Shown here: in pieces, positions 26,005 to 33,458 of the stretch
How positions within the stretch are numbered: the first letter of the stretch is position 1
Layout: each line of letters starts with the position of its first letter
Source of the DNA: a bacterium
GTDB lineage: Bacteria; Vulcanimicrobiota; Vulcanimicrobiia; Eremiobacterales; Eremiobacteraceae
Reading direction: 5' to 3'
DNA: 33,524 nt
Assembly (NCBI GenBank): GCA_902812405.1
Contig: CADDZI010000026.1
Coordinates: 1-33,524 of the forward strand
The notes under the pieces: model-generated
Told to the model about the DNA's origin: nothing
Seen by the model: only the letters and a program-made list of their open reading frames with translations
The model's database searches: none
Made by a program: the position numbers and the translations under genes

Positions 26005-26058
26005 CTTTCCGCGGATGGAACGGTCGTTCGATGAGCTGAACGCGGGGTGCACACGATC

Positions 26059-26559
26059 ATGACGGTTGCGCCGCCCAAAATCTTGTTGCAGCTACGGGTT
26101 AACGGCACCGACATGGCCTGCGCCGCTCACCCCAACAAGACACTGCTCGAAGTGCTGCGTGAAGACCTCGGCTTGACGGGCACCAAGCACGGTTGTGAGA
26201 TGGGCCACTGCGGAGCCTGCACCGTGTTGCTGGACGGTCGCCCGGTCTTGAGTTGTCTTGCACTGGCGGTTGAAGCCCAAGGCCATGAGATTCGCACCGT
26301 CGAGGGCTTGGCACACGGACCACACCTGCATCCGCTCCAGCAGACCTTTGCGGAAACCGGGGCCGCCCAGTGCGGGTACTGCACGCCGGGCTTCCTCATG
26401 ACTGCGGCCGCGTTGCTGGAGACGACGCGCACTCCGAGCGAAGCCGACATACGTCAGGCCATTGCCGGCAACTTGTGCCGGTGCACCGGCTACACCAAGA
26501 TCGTCGAAGCCATCGCGCTGGCGGCCGAGCGGATGCGGGAACAGGCCGAGCATGTCTGA
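26059..26559 (+). CDS. Molybdenum hydroxylase small subunit, two [2Fe-2S] clusters (HcrC/CoxS-like)
   Basis: This is the electron-transfer subunit of a xanthine dehydrogenase-family enzyme. The 166-residue product carries a plant-ferredoxin-type [2Fe-2S] site (C46, C51, C54, C66; GCEMGHCGACTVLL) and an alpha-helical [2Fe-2S] site (C105, C108, C140, C142; QCGYCTPGF and LCRCTGYTKI). The length and motif order match HcrC, CoxS and similar proteins. It is followed, with an eight-base overlap, by the molybdopterin-binding subunit. The medium subunit that should complete the enzyme lies 5.2 kb away at 31802. ATG 26059 is preceded by GGGG; GTG 26047 is an alternative. Confidence 0.93.
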   Translation: MTVAPPKILLQLRVNGTDMACAAHPNKTLLEVLREDLGLTGTKHGCEMGHCGACTVLLDGRPVLSCLALAVEAQGHEIRTVEGLAHGPHLHPLQQTFAETGAAQCGYCTPGFLMTAAALLETTRTPSEADIRQAIAGNLCRCTGYTKIVEAIALAAERMREQAEHV

Positions 26560-29023
26560 GGCGGACCTGAGAGCTGTCTCCACCAACACGAATCCCGATG
26601 GCGACGCGCGGCCGCCGGCGCCGGCGCACGACCCGGCATCAGTCGTGGTGCGTGCGCCTCAGATGACGCCCGACAAACCCGAAGGTTTCTTCATCGTCGG
26701 CAAAGCCACGCCCAAAGTCGATGCCTACGGCCGGGTGACGGGGGCGGAGCGCTTTGCCGACGACATCGCGTTGCCCAACATGCTGTTCGGCAAGATGGTG
26801 CGCAGCACGCAGCCGCACGCACGACTGACGCGGGTGGACGTACGCCGCGCCCTGACCCTTCCCGGCGTCGTGGCCGCGGCGACGGGAGCGGATCTGCGCG
26901 TGCGCTACGGGATTTTGCCCTCCAGCCCCGACGAGACGGTGATGGCGGTGGAGCGCGTCCGCTACGTCGGCGATCCGGTTGCCTGTATCGTGGCCGAAGA
27001 CGAGGTGACCGCCGAAGAGGCATGTGCCCTCGTGGAGGTCGGCTACGAACCGTTACCGGCCATCATGACGATTGACGACGCCCTGCGCACCGATTTGCCG
27101 CAGATTCACCCCAATCCGCGGCGCGCGGATAACGTCCACAAGGAAGTCCATCTGGAGTTTGGCGACGTCGAGCAAGGGTTTGCGGCGGCCGACCGGGTCT
27201 TTGAGGACGAATACTTTTTCGAAGGGACGACGCACGCGCCGATCGAGCAGCATGCGGTTGTCGCCGACTACGGGCCGGACGGCAAGCTGACGCTGTGGTG
27301 CTCGACGCAGACGCCGCACTACCTCCACCGCATCGCGGCAGCGGTGCTCGGACTGCCGGGCAGTCACGTGCGGGTGATCGCGCCGCCGGTCGGCGGGGGC
27401 TTCGGCGGCAAGACCGAGCCTTTTGCCCACGAACTGGCCGCCGGATTCATGGCGATGAAGACCGGCCGGCCGGTGAAGATGACGCTGACGCGCGAAGAAG
27501 TTTTCTACGCCCACCGCGGCCGCCATCCGGTGCGTTTCAAACTGCGCACCGGCGTCAAAAACGACGGGACGATCACCGCGGTCCACCTCCAGACGTGGCT
27601 CGACGGCGGCGCGTACGGATCATACGGGGTCGCTACAACGTACTACACGGGCGCCTTGACGCCCGTCACCTACAAGATCCCGGCCTACAAGTTCGACGGG
27701 TGCCGCGTCTTCACGAACAAGCCGCCGTGCGGCCCCAAGCGCGGTCACGGCACGACGCAGCCGCGCTTTGCGATCGAAAGCCAGCTCGACAAGATAGCGG
27801 ATGCGCTGGGCTTGGATGCCGCCGAGTACCGCAAGCGCATCGCGGTCGAGCCCTCCTCGAAGACGGTCAACGGCTTGCGGATCACGTCGTGCGGTCTGCC
27901 CCAATGCCTGGATGCGGCCGCGGCGCGCACCAACTACGCCGCCAAACGCGGCCGCCTGCCGCGCGGCAAGGGTATCGGGCTGGCGGCCAGCGCCTACCTG
28001 TGCGGCGCGGGGCTGCCCATTTACTGGAACGCGATGCCGCAATCCGGTGCGATGGTCAAGATCGACCGCGGCGGCGGGGTGACGGTTTTCTGCGGAGCCA
28101 GCGACTGCGGGCAGGGATCCACCCACATGCTGGCGGCGATCGTCGCCGAGACGCTCGGCACTGACGTCACCGACGTTCGGGTCTGCTACGGCGACACGGA
28201 TCTGACGCCGGTGGACCTGGGCTCGTACTCCAGCCGCGTTACCTTCATGGCCGGCAACGCGGCGCGCCAAGCCGCCCTCACGCTGCGGGCGCAGCTGGCA
28301 AACGCCGCCGCCGCAAAGTTGGAGTGTCCGCCGCAGCGGCTGGGATTCGGGCGGCGGCGCGTCTTCTGCCTCGATGATCCCGCGCGCAGCCTCACGTTCA
28401 TCGAAGCGGCGCAGCTGGCCGAGGCGGAGTTCGGTACGCTGGCCGCCGTGGGCAGCTACACGCCGCCCGCGCTGGCGGCAGGCTACAAGGGGTCGGGTGT
28501 TGGGCCGTCGCCGGCCTACTCCTACAGCGTGGCGGTTGCCGAGGTGGACGTAGATCTCGAGACCGGTCAGGTGCAGGTGGAGAAAATAACCTTGGCACAT
28601 GACGTCGGGCGGTGCATCAACGCGGACTCGGTCGAAGGCCAGATCGAAGGCGCGGTCTACATGGGCTTGGGCGAAGCGCTCATGGAGGAGTGGCCGTTTC
28701 GGGCCGGCGAGCACAAGACGCCCAACCTCTTGGACTACAAGACGCCGACGAGCCTGGATACGCCGCCGATCGAAGCGATCATCATTGAGACTGATGATCG
28801 CGAAGGTCCGTTTGGCGCCAAAGAAGCCGGACAAGGACCGCTCAATCCCGTCATCCCCGCCATTGCCAATGCGGTGGCGGATGCGATCAAAGCTCGCATC
28901 CACTCCACGCCGATCACGCCGGAGAAGGTGCTCAAGGCGCTGGATGCAACGTCCGGCGCGCCGCTGCGTCTGAAACCTTCGGCCGCGAGCCGTCCGCAGC
29001 CGCCGGTTCCCGCCTCGCCCTAA
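26552..29023 (+). CDS. Molybdopterin-binding large subunit, xanthine dehydrogenase/4-hydroxybenzoyl-CoA reductase family
   Basis: The 823-residue product binds the molybdenum cofactor and holds the active site. It has the a/b hammerhead domain (VGKATPKVDAYGRVTGAERF), GGGFGGKTEPFAHEL, the PKRGHGTTQPRFAIE segment with the conserved Arg, the CGQGSTHML loop, and a C-terminal GAKEAGQGPLNPVIPA motif. In that last motif the family normally has an essential Glu (GxKxxGE); here it is Gln761 (codon CAA at 28832-28834). With the [4Fe-4S]-bearing medium subunit at 31802 the set is closest to 4-hydroxybenzoyl-CoA reductase, but the Gln makes the reaction uncertain. The stop overlaps the convergent tyrA stop in CTAA (29020-29023). 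Confidence 0.85.
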   Translation: MSEADLRAVSTNTNPDGDARPPAPAHDPASVVVRAPQMTPDKPEGFFIVGKATPKVDAYGRVTGAERFADDIALPNMLFGKMVRSTQPHARLTRVDVRRALTLPGVVAAATGADLRVRYGILPSSPDETVMAVERVRYVGDPVACIVAEDEVTAEEACALVEVGYEPLPAIMTIDDALRTDLPQIHPNPRRADNVHKEVHLEFGDVEQGFAAADRVFEDEYFFEGTTHAPIEQHAVVADYGPDGKLTLWCSTQTPHYLHRIAAAVLGLPGSHVRVIAPPVGGGFGGKTEPFAHELAAGFMAMKTGRPVKMTLTREEVFYAHRGRHPVRFKLRTGVKNDGTITAVHLQTWLDGGAYGSYGVATTYYTGALTPVTYKIPAYKFDGCRVFTNKPPCGPKRGHGTTQPRFAIESQLDKIADALGLDAAEYRKRIAVEPSSKTVNGLRITSCGLPQCLDAAAARTNYAAKRGRLPRGKGIGLAASAYLCGAGLPIYWNAMPQSGAMVKIDRGGGVTVFCGASDCGQGSTHMLAAIVAETLGTDVTDVRVCYGDTDLTPVDLGSYSSRVTFMAGNAARQAALTLRAQLANAAAAKLECPPQRLGFGRRRVFCLDDPARSLTFIEAAQLAEAEFGTLAAVGSYTPPALAAGYKGSGVGPSPAYSYSVAVAEVDVDLETGQVQVEKITLAHDVGRCINADSVEGQIEGAVYMGLGEALMEEWPFRAGEHKTPNLLDYKTPTSLDTPPIEAIIIETDDREGPFGAKEAGQGPLNPVIPAIANAVADAIKARIHSTPITPEKVLKALDATSGAPLRLKPSAASRPQPPVPASP

Positions 29024-29814
29024 CGCGCGGCAGGCGTCCCGCGCGCCTCCAACTTCCGAGCGGCATCTTGCATCGATCGGGCAAGCCCGCGCAGCTCGCG
29101 GGCGATGTGATGGCGGTTGGCATCCAGAATCGGTTCCCACATCGAGGTACGGCTGCGAGTCAGTCGCAGCAGCTCGCACGCGACCGGCCCGCATAGGTCC
29201 GTCATGCGGCGCGGCGAGTCGCGCCCCCGCAGCCGCGCGGCAAAAAGCCACGCCACGACCTGCGGCAGGTGCGAGGTGAGAGCAAGGATGCGATCGTGCG
29301 TGGCCGCGTCGAGGGGAACCGGCTGCGCCCCCAAGGATGCAAGGAAACGAGAGGCCTTGCGGTTCAGGGCGGCGCAAGCGGTGGGCACGTAGGCCCAAGG
29401 CCGGCCTAAAAACAGATCGGCACGCGCCGCCGCGGGGCCGCCGTGCGTTCCCCCCGCCAAGGGGTGGCTGCCGACGAAACCCGCGACACTTCGGCCAATA
29501 CGCTGAACGGGGACTTTGACCGAGGCGACGTCCAGGATCACGTTCGCCCGCTGCGGCGGATGAACGCGCAGGTACGCCAATTCCGCCAGCGTTGCCGGCA
29601 GCGGTACGGCAAGGACAATGACATCACACCGGCTGTAGAGGAAGGCCCGGCTGACAACCGCGTCCAGAGCACCTCGCCGCCGCGCGCGCTGCGCAGTGGC
29701 GCGTCGCAGGTCGTAGCCGGCGACGTACCAGCCGGCGCGGCGTGCGGCCAGCCCTACCGAGGCACCGATCAGCCCCGTGCCGACGATTCCCAAGATCCGC
29801 TGTCGGCGCGTCAC
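29020..29814 (-). CDS. tyrA: Prephenate (arogenate) dehydrogenase
   Basis: TyrA makes the tyrosine precursor 4-hydroxyphenylpyruvate (or tyrosine from arogenate) in the cytoplasm. The 264-residue product has the NAD(P)-binding GIVGTGLIGASVGLAARR near the N-terminus, VILDVASVK, GSHPLAGGTHGG carrying the conserved His, and LTSHLPQVVAWL with another conserved His. It has no ACT or chorismate mutase domain; mutase activity is provided by the adjacent aroH. It starts with GTG at 29814 overlapping the aroH TGA (GTGA). Its stop shares bases with the large-subunit gene coming from the other side. It is the last gene of aroF-aroH-tyrA. Confidence 0.9.
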   Translation of the reverse strand: MTRRQRILGIVGTGLIGASVGLAARRAGWYVAGYDLRRATAQRARRRGALDAVVSRAFLYSRCDVIVLAVPLPATLAELAYLRVHPPQRANVILDVASVKVPVQRIGRSVAGFVGSHPLAGGTHGGPAAARADLFLGRPWAYVPTACAALNRKASRFLASLGAQPVPLDAATHDRILALTSHLPQVVAWLFAARLRGRDSPRRMTDLCGPVACELLRLTRSRTSMWEPILDANRHHIARELRGLARSMQDAARKLEARGTPAAR

Positions 29815-30179
29815 GTGGAGGGCGCAGCCAAGTCCGGTCGCAGGGTGGCAGCTCGTCCCAAGTACACGTGCCGTGCCGTGGCCGTGCCGTTTGTGTTGAT
29901 GAGAATGAGGACGCGCAGCACGCGCCTGAGAGCACCGGGCACATCGATCTCGGTGAACGACAGCATCGGAACGTCATGCCAGCCCAGCTCACGGGCCGCA
30001 CGGGCCGGAAAGGCGGCTCGCAGATCAGGCGTCATGCTGAAGAGCGCGCACACGACGTCGTCGATCGCGAGGCCGTTGCGGGCGATCATTTCCGCAAGCA
30101 GACGGCGCGTGGCGGCTGCGATGGCCTGGGGGTCATCGCTCGCGACGTCAATCGCACCGCGGATGCCGCGCACCTTCAT
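29811..30179 (-). CDS. aroH: Chorismate mutase, AroH (monofunctional) type
   Basis: AroH rearranges chorismate to prephenate. The 122-residue product matches the trimeric Bacillus subtilis-type enzyme. It begins [12 protein letters not shown], and has [20 protein letters not shown], a basic strand [12 protein letters not shown] carrying the active-site Arg, and the C-terminal [15 protein letters not shown]. It is clearly different from the all-helical AroQ type. The ATG at 30179 overlaps the aroF TGA (ATGA), and its own TGA overlaps the tyrA GTG, so the three genes are translationally coupled. Confidence 0.95.
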
Positions 30180-31009
30180 GCCTCAACCTGGTGCGCGTCG
30201 AACACCGGGATGCGCGCCAGCTCGGCCGTGATGCGCGCAAAGTCCTCGAACGTCAGGGCCTGCTGACCGTCGCTCTTGGCCTGCGACGGAGCGGGATGAA
30301 CTTCCAACAGCAGTCCGTGCGCGCCGGCGGCCTTTGCCGCCCGGCACAGTGGTCCAATCCAGCGCCGTACGCCGACGCCGTGGCTGGGATCGACGAACAC
30401 CGGCAAGGCGGTGCGCTCGCGCAATACGGGTACCGCAGAGAGGTCGAGTGTATTGCGCGTCGCCGTCTCGAAGGTGCGGATGCCGCGCTCGCACAGGATG
30501 ACACGCGGATTGCCTTCGGCCAAGATGTATTCGGCAGCCAGCAGCAACTCCTCAAGCGTGGCCGAGAAACCACGCTTGAGGAGCACGGGGCTTTCGGTGC
30601 GCCCGACGGCGCGCAACAGATCGAAGTTTTGCATGTTCCGGGCTCCGATCTGAAGGACGTCGACCTGGGCGGCCATGCGCGGCACGTCCGCAGCGTTCGT
30701 TACCTCACTGACGGTCGGTAATCCGAAGGCTCTGCCCGCTTCCGCCAGGAGCATGACGCCGTCCCAACCCAAGCCTTGAAAGCTGTAGGGACTCGTGCGA
30801 GGTTTGAAAGCGCCCCCGCGCAGCATGACGGCGCCGCTTGCCTTGACGGCGGCGGCGGTTGCAAAGATCTGTTCCCGTGACTCCACGGCACACGGGCCGG
30901 CGGCAATAACAAACTCACCGTCCGCGACGCGAATGTTGCGGATATGGAAACCGCCGCCGGTGCCGGCCGGCGGACGCTCCACCCACCGTGGGCGGCAGAT
31001 CTCGGACAT
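30176..31009 (-). CDS. aroF: 3-deoxy-7-phosphoheptulonate (DAHP) synthase, type I-beta
   Basis: This enzyme condenses phosphoenolpyruvate with erythrose 4-phosphate, the first step of the shikimate pathway. The 277-residue product shows [65 protein letters not shown] and DPSHGVGVR, all typical of the AroA-beta/KDO8P synthase-like group. It has only about 30 residues before the barrel. It therefore lacks the ferredoxin-like domain of the Thermotoga enzyme and the AroQ fusion of Bacillus, the usual feedback-inhibition modules. Control may instead come from the attenuator upstream. A GTG at 31012 directly precedes the ATG; GGGAGG at 31026-31021 serves either. It is the first gene of the aro operon. 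Confidence 0.95.
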
Positions 31010-31044
31010 CACGTGCCTACCTCCCGTGCGGCCGTAGGAAACGA

Positions 31045-31076
31045 CGAAGCCCTCACCTCGGCGGGTGAGGGCTTCG
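31045..31076 (-). terminator. Attenuator hairpin in the aroF leader
   Basis: On the minus strand CGAAGCCCTCACC (31076-31064) pairs perfectly with GGTGAGGGCTTCG (31057-31045) around a six-base loop, giving a 13-bp stem. It is followed by TCGTTTCC, a short and imperfect T-tract. It lies 23 bases after the leader-peptide stop and about 33 bases before the aroF start. Its 5' arm (31070-31064, CCTCACC) can instead pair with GGTGGGG at 31121-31115 in the leader-peptide coding region, which would prevent termination. Confidence 0.8.
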
Positions 31077-31099
31077 CGCCCGGCCGTCTCGTCAGGCCG

Positions 31100-31180
31100 T
31101 CAACGCAAAGGCGTCCCCACCGGCCGGATTGGCCAGCCGTAGCGGTAATAGGACGCCCACGCAGCCTGATGCATCATCAT
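31100..31180 (-). CDS. Aromatic-rich leader peptide of the aroF-aroH-tyrA operon
   Basis: The 26-codon frame runs from the first of three consecutive ATG codons (31180) to TGA at 31100. Residues 8-16 are W-A-S-Y-Y-R-Y-G-W: two Trp and three Tyr in nine residues, the hallmark of a transcription-attenuation leader peptide. The RNA of codons 8-10 (GGCGTCC, 31157-31151) can pair with codons 22-24 (GGACGCC, 31116-31110). The overlapping GGTGGGG (31121-31115) can pair with the terminator's 5' arm. A ribosome waiting for charged tRNA-Tyr at codons 11-14 would mask the first segment and free the second. No strong Shine-Dalgarno precedes it, but the predicted promoter would make it nearly leaderless. 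It does not overlap the VOC gene. Confidence 0.75.
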   Translation of the reverse strand: MMMHQAAWASYYRYGWPIRPVGTPLR

Positions 31181-31189
31181 GTAGCCATC

Positions 31190-31218
31190 ATGAAACCAAA
31201 AAGCCGCGGGCTTGTCAA
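31190..31218 (-). promoter_or_regulatory. Candidate promoter of the aro operon leader
   Basis: A perfect TTGACA (31218-31213) is followed after 17 bases by TTTCAT (31195-31190), a four-of-six -10 match; CATGAT at 31192-31187 is a less well spaced option. Transcription would start near 31183, two or three bases before the leader-peptide ATG. Confidence 0.45.
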
Positions 31219-31309
31219 GGGTTTGCCGCGCCGCGCACGCAAAAATGGATGCCAGGCCACGCAGGGGGGCGCCGCCGGGCCCAGCGCGGGTGGCGCAGCT
31301 GAAAGCACC

Positions 31310-31798
31310 ATGAATGTGAAATTGAATCACGCCGTCCTGAAGGTCCGCGATCTGGATCGGGCCGTGGCTTTCTATCGCGACCTGCTGGGGTTCGAGGAGG
31401 TTGCCCGAGCCGGTCACCAGATGGTCTTCCTGCGAGCCGCGGGTTCGCTCAATCACCACGACCTGGGATTTCTCCGCGTCGGCCCTCACGCGCCCTCACC
31501 GGCCGAATCCGGGGTGGGATTGTTCCATCTGGCGTGGGAGGTACCGGCCATCGAGGATCTCGTCACAGTGCGCCGTCGTTTGGCGGAGCAGGGGTGCTTG
31601 AGCGGCGAGAGCGACCATGGTGCGACCAAGTCGGTATACGGCGTCGATCCGGACGGCAACGAGTTTGAAGTGATGTGGATGGTGCCGCGCGAGCTGTGGG
31701 GTGAGTACGCCTCGCAGGCGCCGACTCGCCCCTTGGATCTTGACGCCGAACTGCGCCGCTTCGGCACGCAGGCTGCGACGACAGCCGAGCAGAGTTAG
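31310..31798 (+). CDS. VOC-superfamily protein (glyoxalase/extradiol dioxygenase fold)
   Basis: The 162-residue product has the paired beta-alpha-beta-beta-beta modules of the vicinal oxygen chelate superfamily. It opens MNVKLNHAVLKVRDLDRAVA, with likely metal ligand His7. The second module has GLFHLAWEV with His73, and the last strand VDPDGNEFEVMW provides Glu120. A metal site of two His and one Glu fits extradiol dioxygenases and glyoxalase/epimerase members alike; the length suits a single-domain member. It is three bases upstream of the [4Fe-4S]-containing hydroxylase medium subunit, so they are probably co-transcribed and might act on the same aromatic or acyl-CoA pathway. The reaction is not predictable. 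Confidence 0.85.
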   Translation: MNVKLNHAVLKVRDLDRAVAFYRDLLGFEEVARAGHQMVFLRAAGSLNHHDLGFLRVGPHAPSPAESGVGLFHLAWEVPAIEDLVTVRRRLAEQGCLSGESDHGATKSVYGVDPDGNEFEVMWMVPRELWGEYASQAPTRPLDLDAELRRFGTQAATTAEQS

Positions 31799-31801
31799 GC
31801 C

Positions 31802-32788
31802 ATGTTGCGCCTGCCGCCTTTTGCTTACCATCCTGCTGCCAGCCTGGAGGACGCGGTGGGGATGTTGGCTCGTTACGGGTGGCGGGCGCTCGTCGTCTCC
31901 GGGGGCACCGATCTCTTCGCCAACATGAAGCAGCGGCTGTTCACGCCGGAGGTCGTCGTCGGGTTGAGGCCGCTGCGCGAGCTGTCGTACGTTCGTGCGT
32001 CGGAAGGCGGGGTCGCAATTGGCGCTCTTACCACGTTGACCCACATTGCGGAGGATCCCGTCATTGAGAGCCGCTATCCAGCCCTGCACGAAGCGGTATC
32101 GGTCATTTCAACCCCGCAACTACGCAACATGGGGACACTGGGCGGCAATATCTGCCTCGACACGCGGTGCAATTACTACAACCAAGACTACGACTGGCGC
32201 CGCGCGCTGGGATTTTGCATGAAAAAGGACGGCCAGGTGTGCCGGGTCGCACCCAAGAGTCCGACGTGTGTCGCCGTCAACTCGTCGGACAGCGCTCCGG
32301 TCCTCATCGCGTACGGGGCGACGCTGCGTCTGGCCGGCCCGGAGGGCAGGCGCGAGGTGCCGGCTGCCGAGTTCTTCCGCAACGACGGCATGCGGCCGTG
32401 GTGCAAACGCCCGGACGAAATTCTTACCGAGGTGCGCCTCCCCGCCCTGCCCGCCGGCACGCGGGCCGCATATCGCAAGTTGCGCTTGCGCAACGCGATT
32501 GATTTCCCGATCCTCGGCGTCGCTGTCATGCTGCAAGTCGAGGCCGGTGTGTGCGTGCGGGCGCGCGTCGTGCTCAACGCCGTTGCGTCCAAGCCGGTGG
32601 AAGTACCGGATGCCGCCGCGGCCCTGGTCGGCACGGATCTCAATCCACGGGCTTTGGATGAGGCCGCGGACGCGGCCTATGCGGCGGGCAAGCCGCTCGA
32701 CAATACCAGCGGTTCCATCCCGTATCGTAAGCGCATGCTGCGCGTGTTTGCCCGCCGGGCACTTGCGGCGTGCGCGCCGGGATCCTAA
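31802..32788 (+). CDS. FAD-binding medium subunit with [4Fe-4S] insert (HcrB-like)
   Basis: The 328-residue product is the FAD subunit of a molybdenum hydroxylase: VVSGGTDLFANMKQ and IGALTTLTHIAED, then TPQLRNMGTLGGNICLD around the flavin. Between them and SAPVLIAYGA it has an insert with four Cys (C123, C139, C147, C156; TRCNYYNQDYDW, GFCMKK, QVCRVAPKSPTC). This insert is the signature of 4-hydroxybenzoyl-CoA reductase beta subunits, where it binds an extra [4Fe-4S] cluster; ordinary CoxM/XdhB subunits lack it. It should partner the small and large subunits at 26059-29023, but is separated from them by the aro operon. It follows the VOC gene by three bases and is 25 bases before an alpha/beta hydrolase. 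Confidence 0.9.
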   Translation: MLRLPPFAYHPAASLEDAVGMLARYGWRALVVSGGTDLFANMKQRLFTPEVVVGLRPLRELSYVRASEGGVAIGALTTLTHIAEDPVIESRYPALHEAVSVISTPQLRNMGTLGGNICLDTRCNYYNQDYDWRRALGFCMKKDGQVCRVAPKSPTCVAVNSSDSAPVLIAYGATLRLAGPEGRREVPAAEFFRNDGMRPWCKRPDEILTEVRLPALPAGTRAAYRKLRLRNAIDFPILGVAVMLQVEAGVCVRARVVLNAVASKPVEVPDAAAALVGTDLNPRALDEAADAAYAAGKPLDNTSGSIPYRKRMLRVFARRALAACAPGS

Positions 32789-32813
32789 GAGAACAGCCGG
32801 CATAGCCAGCGTC

Positions 32814-33458
32814 ATGAATACCCGGCACGCGGAAGTGGCGATCGACAGCCCGGCCGGTCCGCTTGCCGCACTCGAACACGTACCGCCTGGGGCGCGTGGC
32901 ATCGTGATCTTCGCCCATGGCAGCGGCAGCAGCCGGCTTTCCCCGCGCAACCGGTATGTCGCGGGCGAACTTGCGGCCGGAGGCTTCGCAAGCCTGCTGC
33001 TGGATCTGCTGACGCCGGCGGAGGAGGCGTTGGACAGGCACACGGGCCGACTGCGCTTTGACGTGGGGCTGCTCGCCGAGCGCGTGGCGTTGGCGCTTGA
33101 GTGGTCCCGGCAGCGCTGGCCCGAGCTGCCCGCCGGCCTGTTCGGGGCAAGCACCGGTGCTGCCGCGGCGCTCGTCGCCGCTGCCGAACGGCCTTCCGAC
33201 GTTGCAGCCATCGTGTCGCGCGGCGGACGGCCGGATTTGGCGGGACCGGCGTTGCCGCGCGTGGCTGCGCCCACGCTGCTCATCGTTGGCGGTAACGATG
33301 ACGTCGTGCTGCGGCTCAATCAAGAGGCAGCCGCACGGATGCGCTGTCCGCACGAGCTGCGGATCATCCCGGGTGCAGGCCACCTGTTTGAAGAGCCCGG
33401 CACCCTTGAGGCGGTGGCGACGCTGGCGCGCGACTGGTTTGCGCGCCATCTCGCCTAA
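32814..33458 (+). CDS. Alpha/beta hydrolase, dienelactone hydrolase-like
   Basis: The 214-residue product is a single-domain alpha/beta hydrolase. An oxyanion-region strand, GIVIFAHGSGSSRLSPRN, is followed by the nucleophile elbow GLFGASTGAAAAL (Ser in GxSxG). The acid is in IVGGNDDVV and the His in GAGHLFEEPG. It resembles short hydrolases annotated as dienelactone hydrolase family, sometimes found fused to phosphoribosyltransferases; no such fusion is present. It has no signal peptide. It is probably the last gene of VOC-medium subunit-hydrolase. The ester or thioester it cuts is unknown; a link to aromatic-CoA turnover is only suggested by neighbours. Confidence 0.85.
   Translation: MNTRHAEVAIDSPAGPLAALEHVPPGARGIVIFAHGSGSSRLSPRNRYVAGELAAGGFASLLLDLLTPAEEALDRHTGRLRFDVGLLAERVALALEWSRQRWPELPAGLFGASTGAAAALVAAAERPSDVAAIVSRGGRPDLAGPALPRVAAPTLLIVGGNDDVVLRLNQEAAARMRCPHELRIIPGAGHLFEEPGTLEAVATLARDWFARHLA

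Follow-up and report, generated by a model that had tools for sequence, protein, structure and literature searches.

In Escherichia coli, the pheA (pheL), pheST and trp (trpL) leaders are composed of four RNA segments, which form a 1:2 pause hairpin, a 2:3 antiterminator and a 3:4 intrinsic terminator, with the regulatory codons lying at segment 1. The locus described here, upstream of an aroF-aroH-tyrA operon, is laid out in the same way; unlike it, the E. coli leaders use a Shine-Dalgarno sequence and sense Phe or Trp. In E. coli, TyrR controls the tyr genes. In the trp attenuator of Sinorhizobium meliloti (peTrpL/rnTrpL), the leader ORF opens at the transcript start or beside it, as is predicted for the present locus, but that attenuator is for Trp only. 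Additional roles in trans have been described for the S. meliloti leader peptide (PMC7298713).

In Corynebacterium glutamicum, the AroR leader (Phe-Tyr-Phe) precedes aroF and, according to the account of Neshat et al. 2014 given in PMC11802643, responds to Phe and not to Tyr. In that account, as at the present locus, an aromatic-codon leader peptide lies ahead of a DAHP synthase operon; a stalled ribosome raises transcription there, as is proposed here. The present leader differs in belonging to another phylum, in combining Tyr and Trp codons without Phe, and in preceding an operon with chorismate mutase and tyrA. Some small ORFs of leader type in C. glutamicum are found on leaderless transcripts (small-RNA survey, PMC4046766). 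In a 2005 survey of actinobacteria (PMC1262725), leaders were described for trp, ilv, leuS and cys, whereas Phe and Tyr operons yielded no RNA element; T-boxes were named as the tyrosine RNA control elsewhere. These leaders illustrate leader-peptide control outside the proteobacteria, and the Cys-rich ones resemble those of sulfur genes in the phylum studied here; however, the actinobacterial cys leaders lack obvious terminators, whereas the Eremiobacterota Cys leaders have them. A 2010 survey of terminators (PMC2965389) presented a histidine leader in bacilli and knew of no earlier leader peptide beyond the proteobacteria and actinobacteria.

The literature searched, a scope that excluded most subscription papers, contains no attenuator from the Eremiobacterota and no description of a uniform leaderless design with Tyr/Trp specificity. 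The mechanism is known; as far as this search extends, the phylum and the Tyr/Trp specificity are without a description, and tyrosine is not established as the amino acid sensed by a ribosome-mediated attenuator.

Anatomy of the leader and its operon

The window, the whole 33,524-nt stretch analysed, is contig 26 of a 2.32-Mb MAG (97% complete) of Candidatus Eremiobacterota, the group that also provides the closest named relatives of the window DAHP synthase. Mis-binning of the contig was ruled out. Its RelA/SpoT is plainly that of family f1, with 74-83% identity to f1 copies versus about 53-71% to others, and because every full-length f1 copy outscores all non-f1 copies, the contig is assigned to its stated family. 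It carries a tight minus-strand operon, aroF-aroH-tyrA (31012-29020), and upstream of this a complete attenuator anatomy spans 31218-31036 on the same strand. From 5' to 3', promoter-like hexamers are followed after 9 nt by ATG ATG ATG at 31180, a 26-codon frame, a hairpin, a weak U-tract, GGGAGG and the aroF start:

31190-31218, minus strand: putative sigma-70-like promoter (consensus match), -35 TTGACA at 31218-31213, 17-nt spacer, -10 TTTCAT at 31195-31190
31100-31180, minus strand: leader peptide ORF of 26 codons, MMMHQAAWASYYRYGWPIRPVGTPLR*, with W8, Y11, Y12, Y14 and W16
31151-31157, minus strand: segment 1, GGCGTCC, pairing with 31116-31110 (pause hairpin or anti-antiterminator; 1:2 duplex -36.7 kcal/mol)
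31104-31126, minus strand: segment 2, the 5' strand of the antiterminator, CGGCCGGUGGGGACGCCUUUGCG, pairing with 31077-31060 (-24.5 kcal/mol)
31060-31077, minus strand: segment 3, the terminator 5' arm and part of the loop, common to the antiterminator and terminator pairings
31045-31076, minus strand: predicted intrinsic terminator hairpin of 13 bp, CGAAGCCCTCACC / CGCCGA / GGTGAGGGCTTCG (-30.8 kcal/mol)
31036-31044, minus strand: weak U-tract 3' of the hairpin, UCGUUUCCU by sequence, often TTTTTT in relatives
31020-31025, minus strand: Shine-Dalgarno sequence of aroF, GGGAGG, outside the terminator hairpin
30176-31012, minus strand: aroF, DAHP synthase, 278 aa (PF00793, E 5e-74)
29811-30179, minus strand: aroH, chorismate mutase type I (PF07736, E 2.6e-40)
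29020-29814, minus strand: tyrA, prephenate dehydrogenase (PF02153/PF20463)

The original prediction had drawn the 26-codon frame (31180-31100) with its five aromatic codons, the pairing of segment 1 (31157-31151) with GGACGCC at 31116-31110, and a perfect 13-bp hairpin at 31076-31045, and each of these was recovered. The pairing that it proposed for the antiterminator, GGTGGGG at 31121-31115 with CCTCACC at 31070-31064, is also present, although it was drawn too short: the duplex runs from 31126-31104 to 31077-31060.

A transcript start at about 31183 is predicted from the consensus match and the recurring layout. The leader ORF may begin at the ATG at 31180, 31177 or 31174, without a Shine-Dalgarno sequence, and covariance model R2, from whose training the window was left out, aligns to the leader from 31177 onwards. 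Because the promoter-like element ends 9 nt 5' of the ATG, the ORF is probably leaderless, with a 5' UTR of some 0-3 nt. It is short and rich in codons of the product type (Tyr/Trp), and it has no Phe codon of the kind on which an AroR-type sensor would depend. The TTTGCG motif immediately 5' of its stop forms the lower part of the antiterminator, and both this motif and the CGG of segment 2 are kept in the alignment of relatives. A predicted intrinsic terminator lies ahead of the first structural gene, with a poor U-tract (UCGUUUCCU).

The aroF start, GTG at 31012 or ATG at 31009, lies shortly 3' of GGGAGG. Translational control by masking of this Shine-Dalgarno sequence is rejected as drawn, because GGGAGG at 31025-31020 lies beyond the hairpin. 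The hairpin was also considered as the terminator of a divergent plus-strand gene and dismissed, there being no T-run on that side. A 129-aa frame (31489-31100, minus strand) that encloses the leader frame is mechanical and runs antisense to a glyoxalase-like gene.

The window AroF has neither an N-terminal regulatory extension nor a fused PheA, in agreement with the earlier view of it as a DAHP synthase without a regulatory domain. The accompanying suggestion that attenuation could be the main control goes too far, since another DAHP synthase, this one with an N-terminal extension (L002), is encoded in the genome. The operon sits inverted within a molybdenum-hydroxylase-like cluster (region 26047-33000), with genes for the 2Fe-2S and large subunits (26047-29023, plus strand) on one side and a gene for the FAD-binding subunit (31802-32788, plus strand), together with an adjoining glyoxalase-like gene, on the other. 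This placement would fit an insertion.

Folding, covariation and the computed switch

Folding of the 171-nt leader, proposed earlier as a check, gave a minimum free energy of -88.8 kcal/mol against -71.9 +/- 4.6 for shuffled sequences (z -3.66; 0/200 shuffles). The switch itself was modelled by masking 30 nt around a ribosome, a mask size that is assumed. With the A site anywhere from codon 8 to codon 16 (W8-W16), 21-24 pairs between segments 2 and 3 are expected (22.8 at W8 and 21.2 at W16), falling to 2.8 at P17. With no ribosome on the leader, the figure is 6.8 and the 1:2 pairing takes over. A stall is therefore computed to free an antiterminator that is mutually exclusive with the terminator, and the claim that stalling at the aromatic codons favours antitermination is borne out in these folds, which switch after W16. 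When 29 leaders were treated in the same way, 153 of 160 aromatic residues lay 5' of the codon at which the antiterminator collapses; shuffling of the residues placed a mean of 110 before the switch and never attained 153 (0/2000).

RNAalifold applied to a first alignment returned only four pairs, all in the antiterminator, as genus g47 had its terminator arms misaligned by about three columns. This was corrected in a second alignment, from which g47 was left out. In the homologous leaders, 95% of cells in the terminator helix are paired and two-sided changes are seen in six of 12 pairs; the covariation score of the helix was matched by none of 500 shuffles. At column pair 137:149 the window has A-U and its relatives G-C, and the antiterminator partner can still pair (U-A versus U/C-G). 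The antiterminator pairing is present in 73% of cells versus at most 47% for slid versions, and no excess of covariation was found for it in the aligned relatives. In the window, the antiterminator duplex is modestly better than its shuffles, 68 of 2000 being equally stable, and cognate pairing of segments 2 and 3 is slightly better than non-cognate pairing in 19 of 29 leaders, which was not taken as proof. The antiterminator thus appears conserved, at a level short of proven.

Related leaders, codon choice and the origin of the operon

Some 30 leaders ahead of aromatic operons across the phylum have in common the frame, the block of aromatic codons, segment 2, the terminator and the spacing of the promoter. 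In other genera, homologous leaders precede pheA::aroF-aroH-tyrA, aroF-aroH-pheA, aroH-tyrA (as in genus g14) and aroH-aroF-tyrA. In nearly all of them TTGAC is followed by a spacer of 16-18 nt, a -10 hexamer, some 8 nt more and then ATG or GTG; this layout is found ahead of many PheA::AroF fusions of f3, a different family within the class, and, in two genomes (G082, G083), ahead of an unfused aroF-aroH-pheA operon. The peptides of relatives include MLTNRSLASAYYYYFCRPPGRLGFVCA, MTTRSTTFAYAYFSRPSGSAGGRVRAR and MNRMFSYAYSFYFGGPLGRLGVVCA, each followed by a terminator. Within the window's own family, genome G010 has MSQNVVRRYYWWLERGG ahead of aroH-aroF-tyrA, with the codons YYWW. When the leader was used in a DNA similarity search against 149 phylum genomes, the matches were no more than short and marginal (about 20-30 nt), and the case for homology was therefore built on the position of the operons and on a covariance model. 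With the window excluded, 18 homologous leaders went into this leave-one-out model, which gives the window element a score of 32 bits (E 1.9e-5 over the whole 2.3-Mb genome); the runner-up in that genome reaches 15 bits, leaving the window element as the only good match.

The window genus is represented by a single genome in this analysis, a model search of its order left 12 of 14 genomes without a match, and the leader is absent from most genomes of its own family. In genus g45, no leader was found in the sequence upstream of the PheA::AroF operons (L104, L107, L108, L110, L111), where the attenuator may have been lost or replaced. The expectation that related genomes would keep the frame, the aromatic codons and the pairing thus holds for most relatives of the operon, but fails for g45 and for most of the window's own family. 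An Rfam scan of the window at the gathering threshold matched a tRNA elsewhere and no leader model, and a permissive scan of ten loci, including that of the window (L001), gave two matches, both far below gathering and neither in L001.

The leaders of relatives carry mostly Phe and Tyr codons, whereas those of the window and G010 carry Tyr and Trp with no Phe. It had been suggested that a Tyr-weighted leader with aroF-aroH-tyrA might be undescribed in this kind of organism; a Tyr weighting is not peculiar to this genome, Tyr/Phe leaders being the norm in the phylum and occurring also ahead of DAHP synthases in some spirochaetes and clostridia, and it is the combination of Tyr with Trp in the absence of Phe that is peculiar to these two. 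Leaders of operons with pheA have on average 2.0 Phe, 3.0 Tyr and 0.8 Trp codons, versus 0.7, 3.1 and 1.3 in operons without it. A Phe codon is present in 24/27 of the former versus 4/7 of the latter, a trend linking Phe codons to pheA (Fisher p 0.086, for sequences that are not independent). PF00800 (prephenate dehydratase) was absent from all 14 genomes of the window's order, the same search being positive in 14/14 control genomes; the order would therefore either import phenylalanine as an auxotroph or use an unrelated dehydratase of another family.

The DAHP synthase of the order-level relatives (14 genomes) is another one, no more than 59% identical to that of the window. The window AroF is instead 68-78% identical to f3 copies, most of them C-terminal halves of PheA::AroF fusions. 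In the AroF tree it is nested in the f3 clade (support 100/98), which suggests transfer, and the second DAHP synthase of the genome groups with f1. The best matches of AroH are likewise f3 copies (up to 64%, against 46-54% within its own family), and TyrA is 42-53% identical to f3 copies versus 39% to G010. The operon was thus probably obtained from an f3-type lineage of Eremiobacterota in which pheA is fused to aroF. In the simplest history that we infer, an f3-type operon would have been transferred together with its leader, and pheA and the Phe codons would have been lost.

Matches to the first covariance model were found in 61 of the 149 phylum genomes, and they extend beyond the aromatic operons. 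Leaders precede ilvB (MFAHTLVLVVVVLISRSAMDRYGLATA), ilvC, leuA (MLVTSLLLLALALVGRSASNRLGLTTA), a homoserine/threonine operon (MSSAFTLATITMLGSVSDRRWMATA), threonine deaminase, trp (MYLVRWCVNWCSDHPGGW), aroA (MSARAYSYRYYGCTVPVPVELGVA), a branched-chain aminotransferase and sulfur genes (MQYVLCCCPCRCFGDSVGPA; MPNQYCLMAMCICCLPSRDRRASA). The window genome has a single match to the model, although its trpE bears an attenuator-like leader of its own, MNPYLARRWWRTCPLRKPAVRR*, with tandem Trp codons, a strong terminator and T6.

L224, L225, L227, L228, L230-L232, L235-L237 and L240-L279: leaders of the same architecture before ilvB, ilvC, leuA, ilvA, thr, ilvE, aroA and sulfur genes, the codons being Val/Leu/Ile, Thr, aromatic or Cys/Met to match
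G000:C9, upstream of trpE 41466-42218 (minus strand), corresponding to L239, reverse complement about 717-855: trpE leader, hairpin GCAGCGGGCCTGA/CAGCA/TCAGGCCCGCTGC followed by T6, directly 3' of rplQ

Over 64 leaders, the class of codon tracks the class of operon, the downstream genes being named partly from recognisable N-termini and partly through family searches. Val, Leu and Ile make up 43% of residues in ilv/leu leaders, Cys and Met 23% in sulfur leaders, and aromatics 20-27% in aro/trp leaders versus 4-8% elsewhere (0/20000 label shuffles for the aromatic difference). Both common descent and convergence are compatible with this set. Cys/Met-rich leaders with terminators occur at L243, L245, L249, L251, L253, L256, L258, L263 and L267, upstream of genes for ABC substrate-binding proteins, a PAPS-reductase-like gene, a TauE-like exporter and a peroxiredoxin, and are candidates for a cysteine attenuator regulon.

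Proposed mechanism and competing readings

It is highly probable, in our judgement, that the leader is a ribosome-mediated transcription attenuator through which charged tRNA-Tyr controls aroF-aroH-tyrA, with tRNA-Trp as a second signal. The RNA would start some 0-3 nt 5' of the leader ATG, and the 26-codon peptide would be made by leaderless initiation. When Tyr-tRNA and Trp-tRNA are ample, the ribosome would reach the stop codon and mask 31126-31104, so that 31076-31064 would pair with 31057-31045 and RNA polymerase would terminate near 31040. Under shortage, a ribosome stalled at W8, Y11, Y12, Y14 or W16 would mask segment 1, leaving 31126-31104 free to pair with 31077-31060 and allowing read-through into aroF. 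On an untranslated leader, the 1:2 pairing would form and termination would be favoured. Promoter use, leaderless translation, termination and the amino acid sensed are all read here from sequence, and codon content alone does not prove the last of these, because the Phe-Tyr-Phe AroR leader of C. glutamicum reportedly responds to Phe but not to Tyr.

The same attenuator might instead respond mainly to tryptophan, or to whichever aromatic tRNA is scarcest, AroF being raised for tryptophan synthesis. W8 and W16 flank the Tyr block, a stall at either would free the antiterminator (22.8 and 21.2 expected pairs), and the other f1 leader, that of G010, reads YYWW. However, Tyr accounts for three of the five regulatory codons, two of them adjacent, the operon contains tyrA and no trp genes, and trpE carries a WW leader of its own at another locus; a mainly tryptophan signal thus seems unlikely, though it deserves some weight. 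Much less probable is a hairpin that works without a ribosome switch, as a constitutive partial terminator or a Rho-related or RNA-stability element, with the aromatic codons incidental. Such a reading would accommodate the weak U-tract and an antiterminator covariation no greater than sequence conservation gives, but not the restriction of aromatic codons to the stretch 5' of the switch in 29 leaders, nor the same architecture, with V/L/I, C/M, T or W codons, ahead of other amino acid operons. That a short ORF and a GC-rich hairpin should have come together by chance in a 68% GC stretch is scarcely credible. The genus is represented by a single genome, GC-rich sequence folds readily and the mechanical ORF list abounds in spurious frames, yet the leave-one-out model picks out the element alone in 2.3 Mb (E 1.9e-5), the folding departs from shuffles (z -3.66), and the homologous leaders contradict an accidental origin.

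The tyrosine-responsive attenuator favoured above would be one of a phylum-wide type whose regulatory codons vary with the operon. More tentatively, and with the chances somewhat short of even, we propose that one stereotyped leaderless design is the common platform of the phylum for operons of Tyr, Phe, Trp, Val/Leu/Ile, Thr and Cys/Met, its codons being swapped per operon, and that the window Phe/Tyr version was retuned to Tyr/Trp after moving into a lineage that lacks prephenate dehydratase, with a tyrosine-sensing ribosome-mediated attenuator as the outcome. The operon, f3-derived on this view, lacks pheA in an organism lacking PF00800, behind a leader lacking Phe codons. Leader-peptide attenuation, so far chiefly proteobacterial and actinobacterial, would here be organised across an uncultured phylum, in a design joining operon-specific codon exchange to probable leaderless initiation. 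The contrast of Phe/Tyr leaders where pheA is present with Tyr/Trp leaders where prephenate dehydratase is absent would constitute a natural experiment on sensor retuning, and a few dozen codons may suffice to show the amino acid logic behind an operon of an uncultured bacterium.

Outside the phylum, short Phe/Tyr-rich frames followed by terminators lie upstream of DAHP synthase genes in spirochaetes (L060, L079, L091) and clostridia (L078, L090, L095, L097), with leader peptides such as MKQNLFSSSYYYFYFTI and MKPKSFGFGYFYFYYYGNNIMN. These are apparently independent aromatic attenuators.
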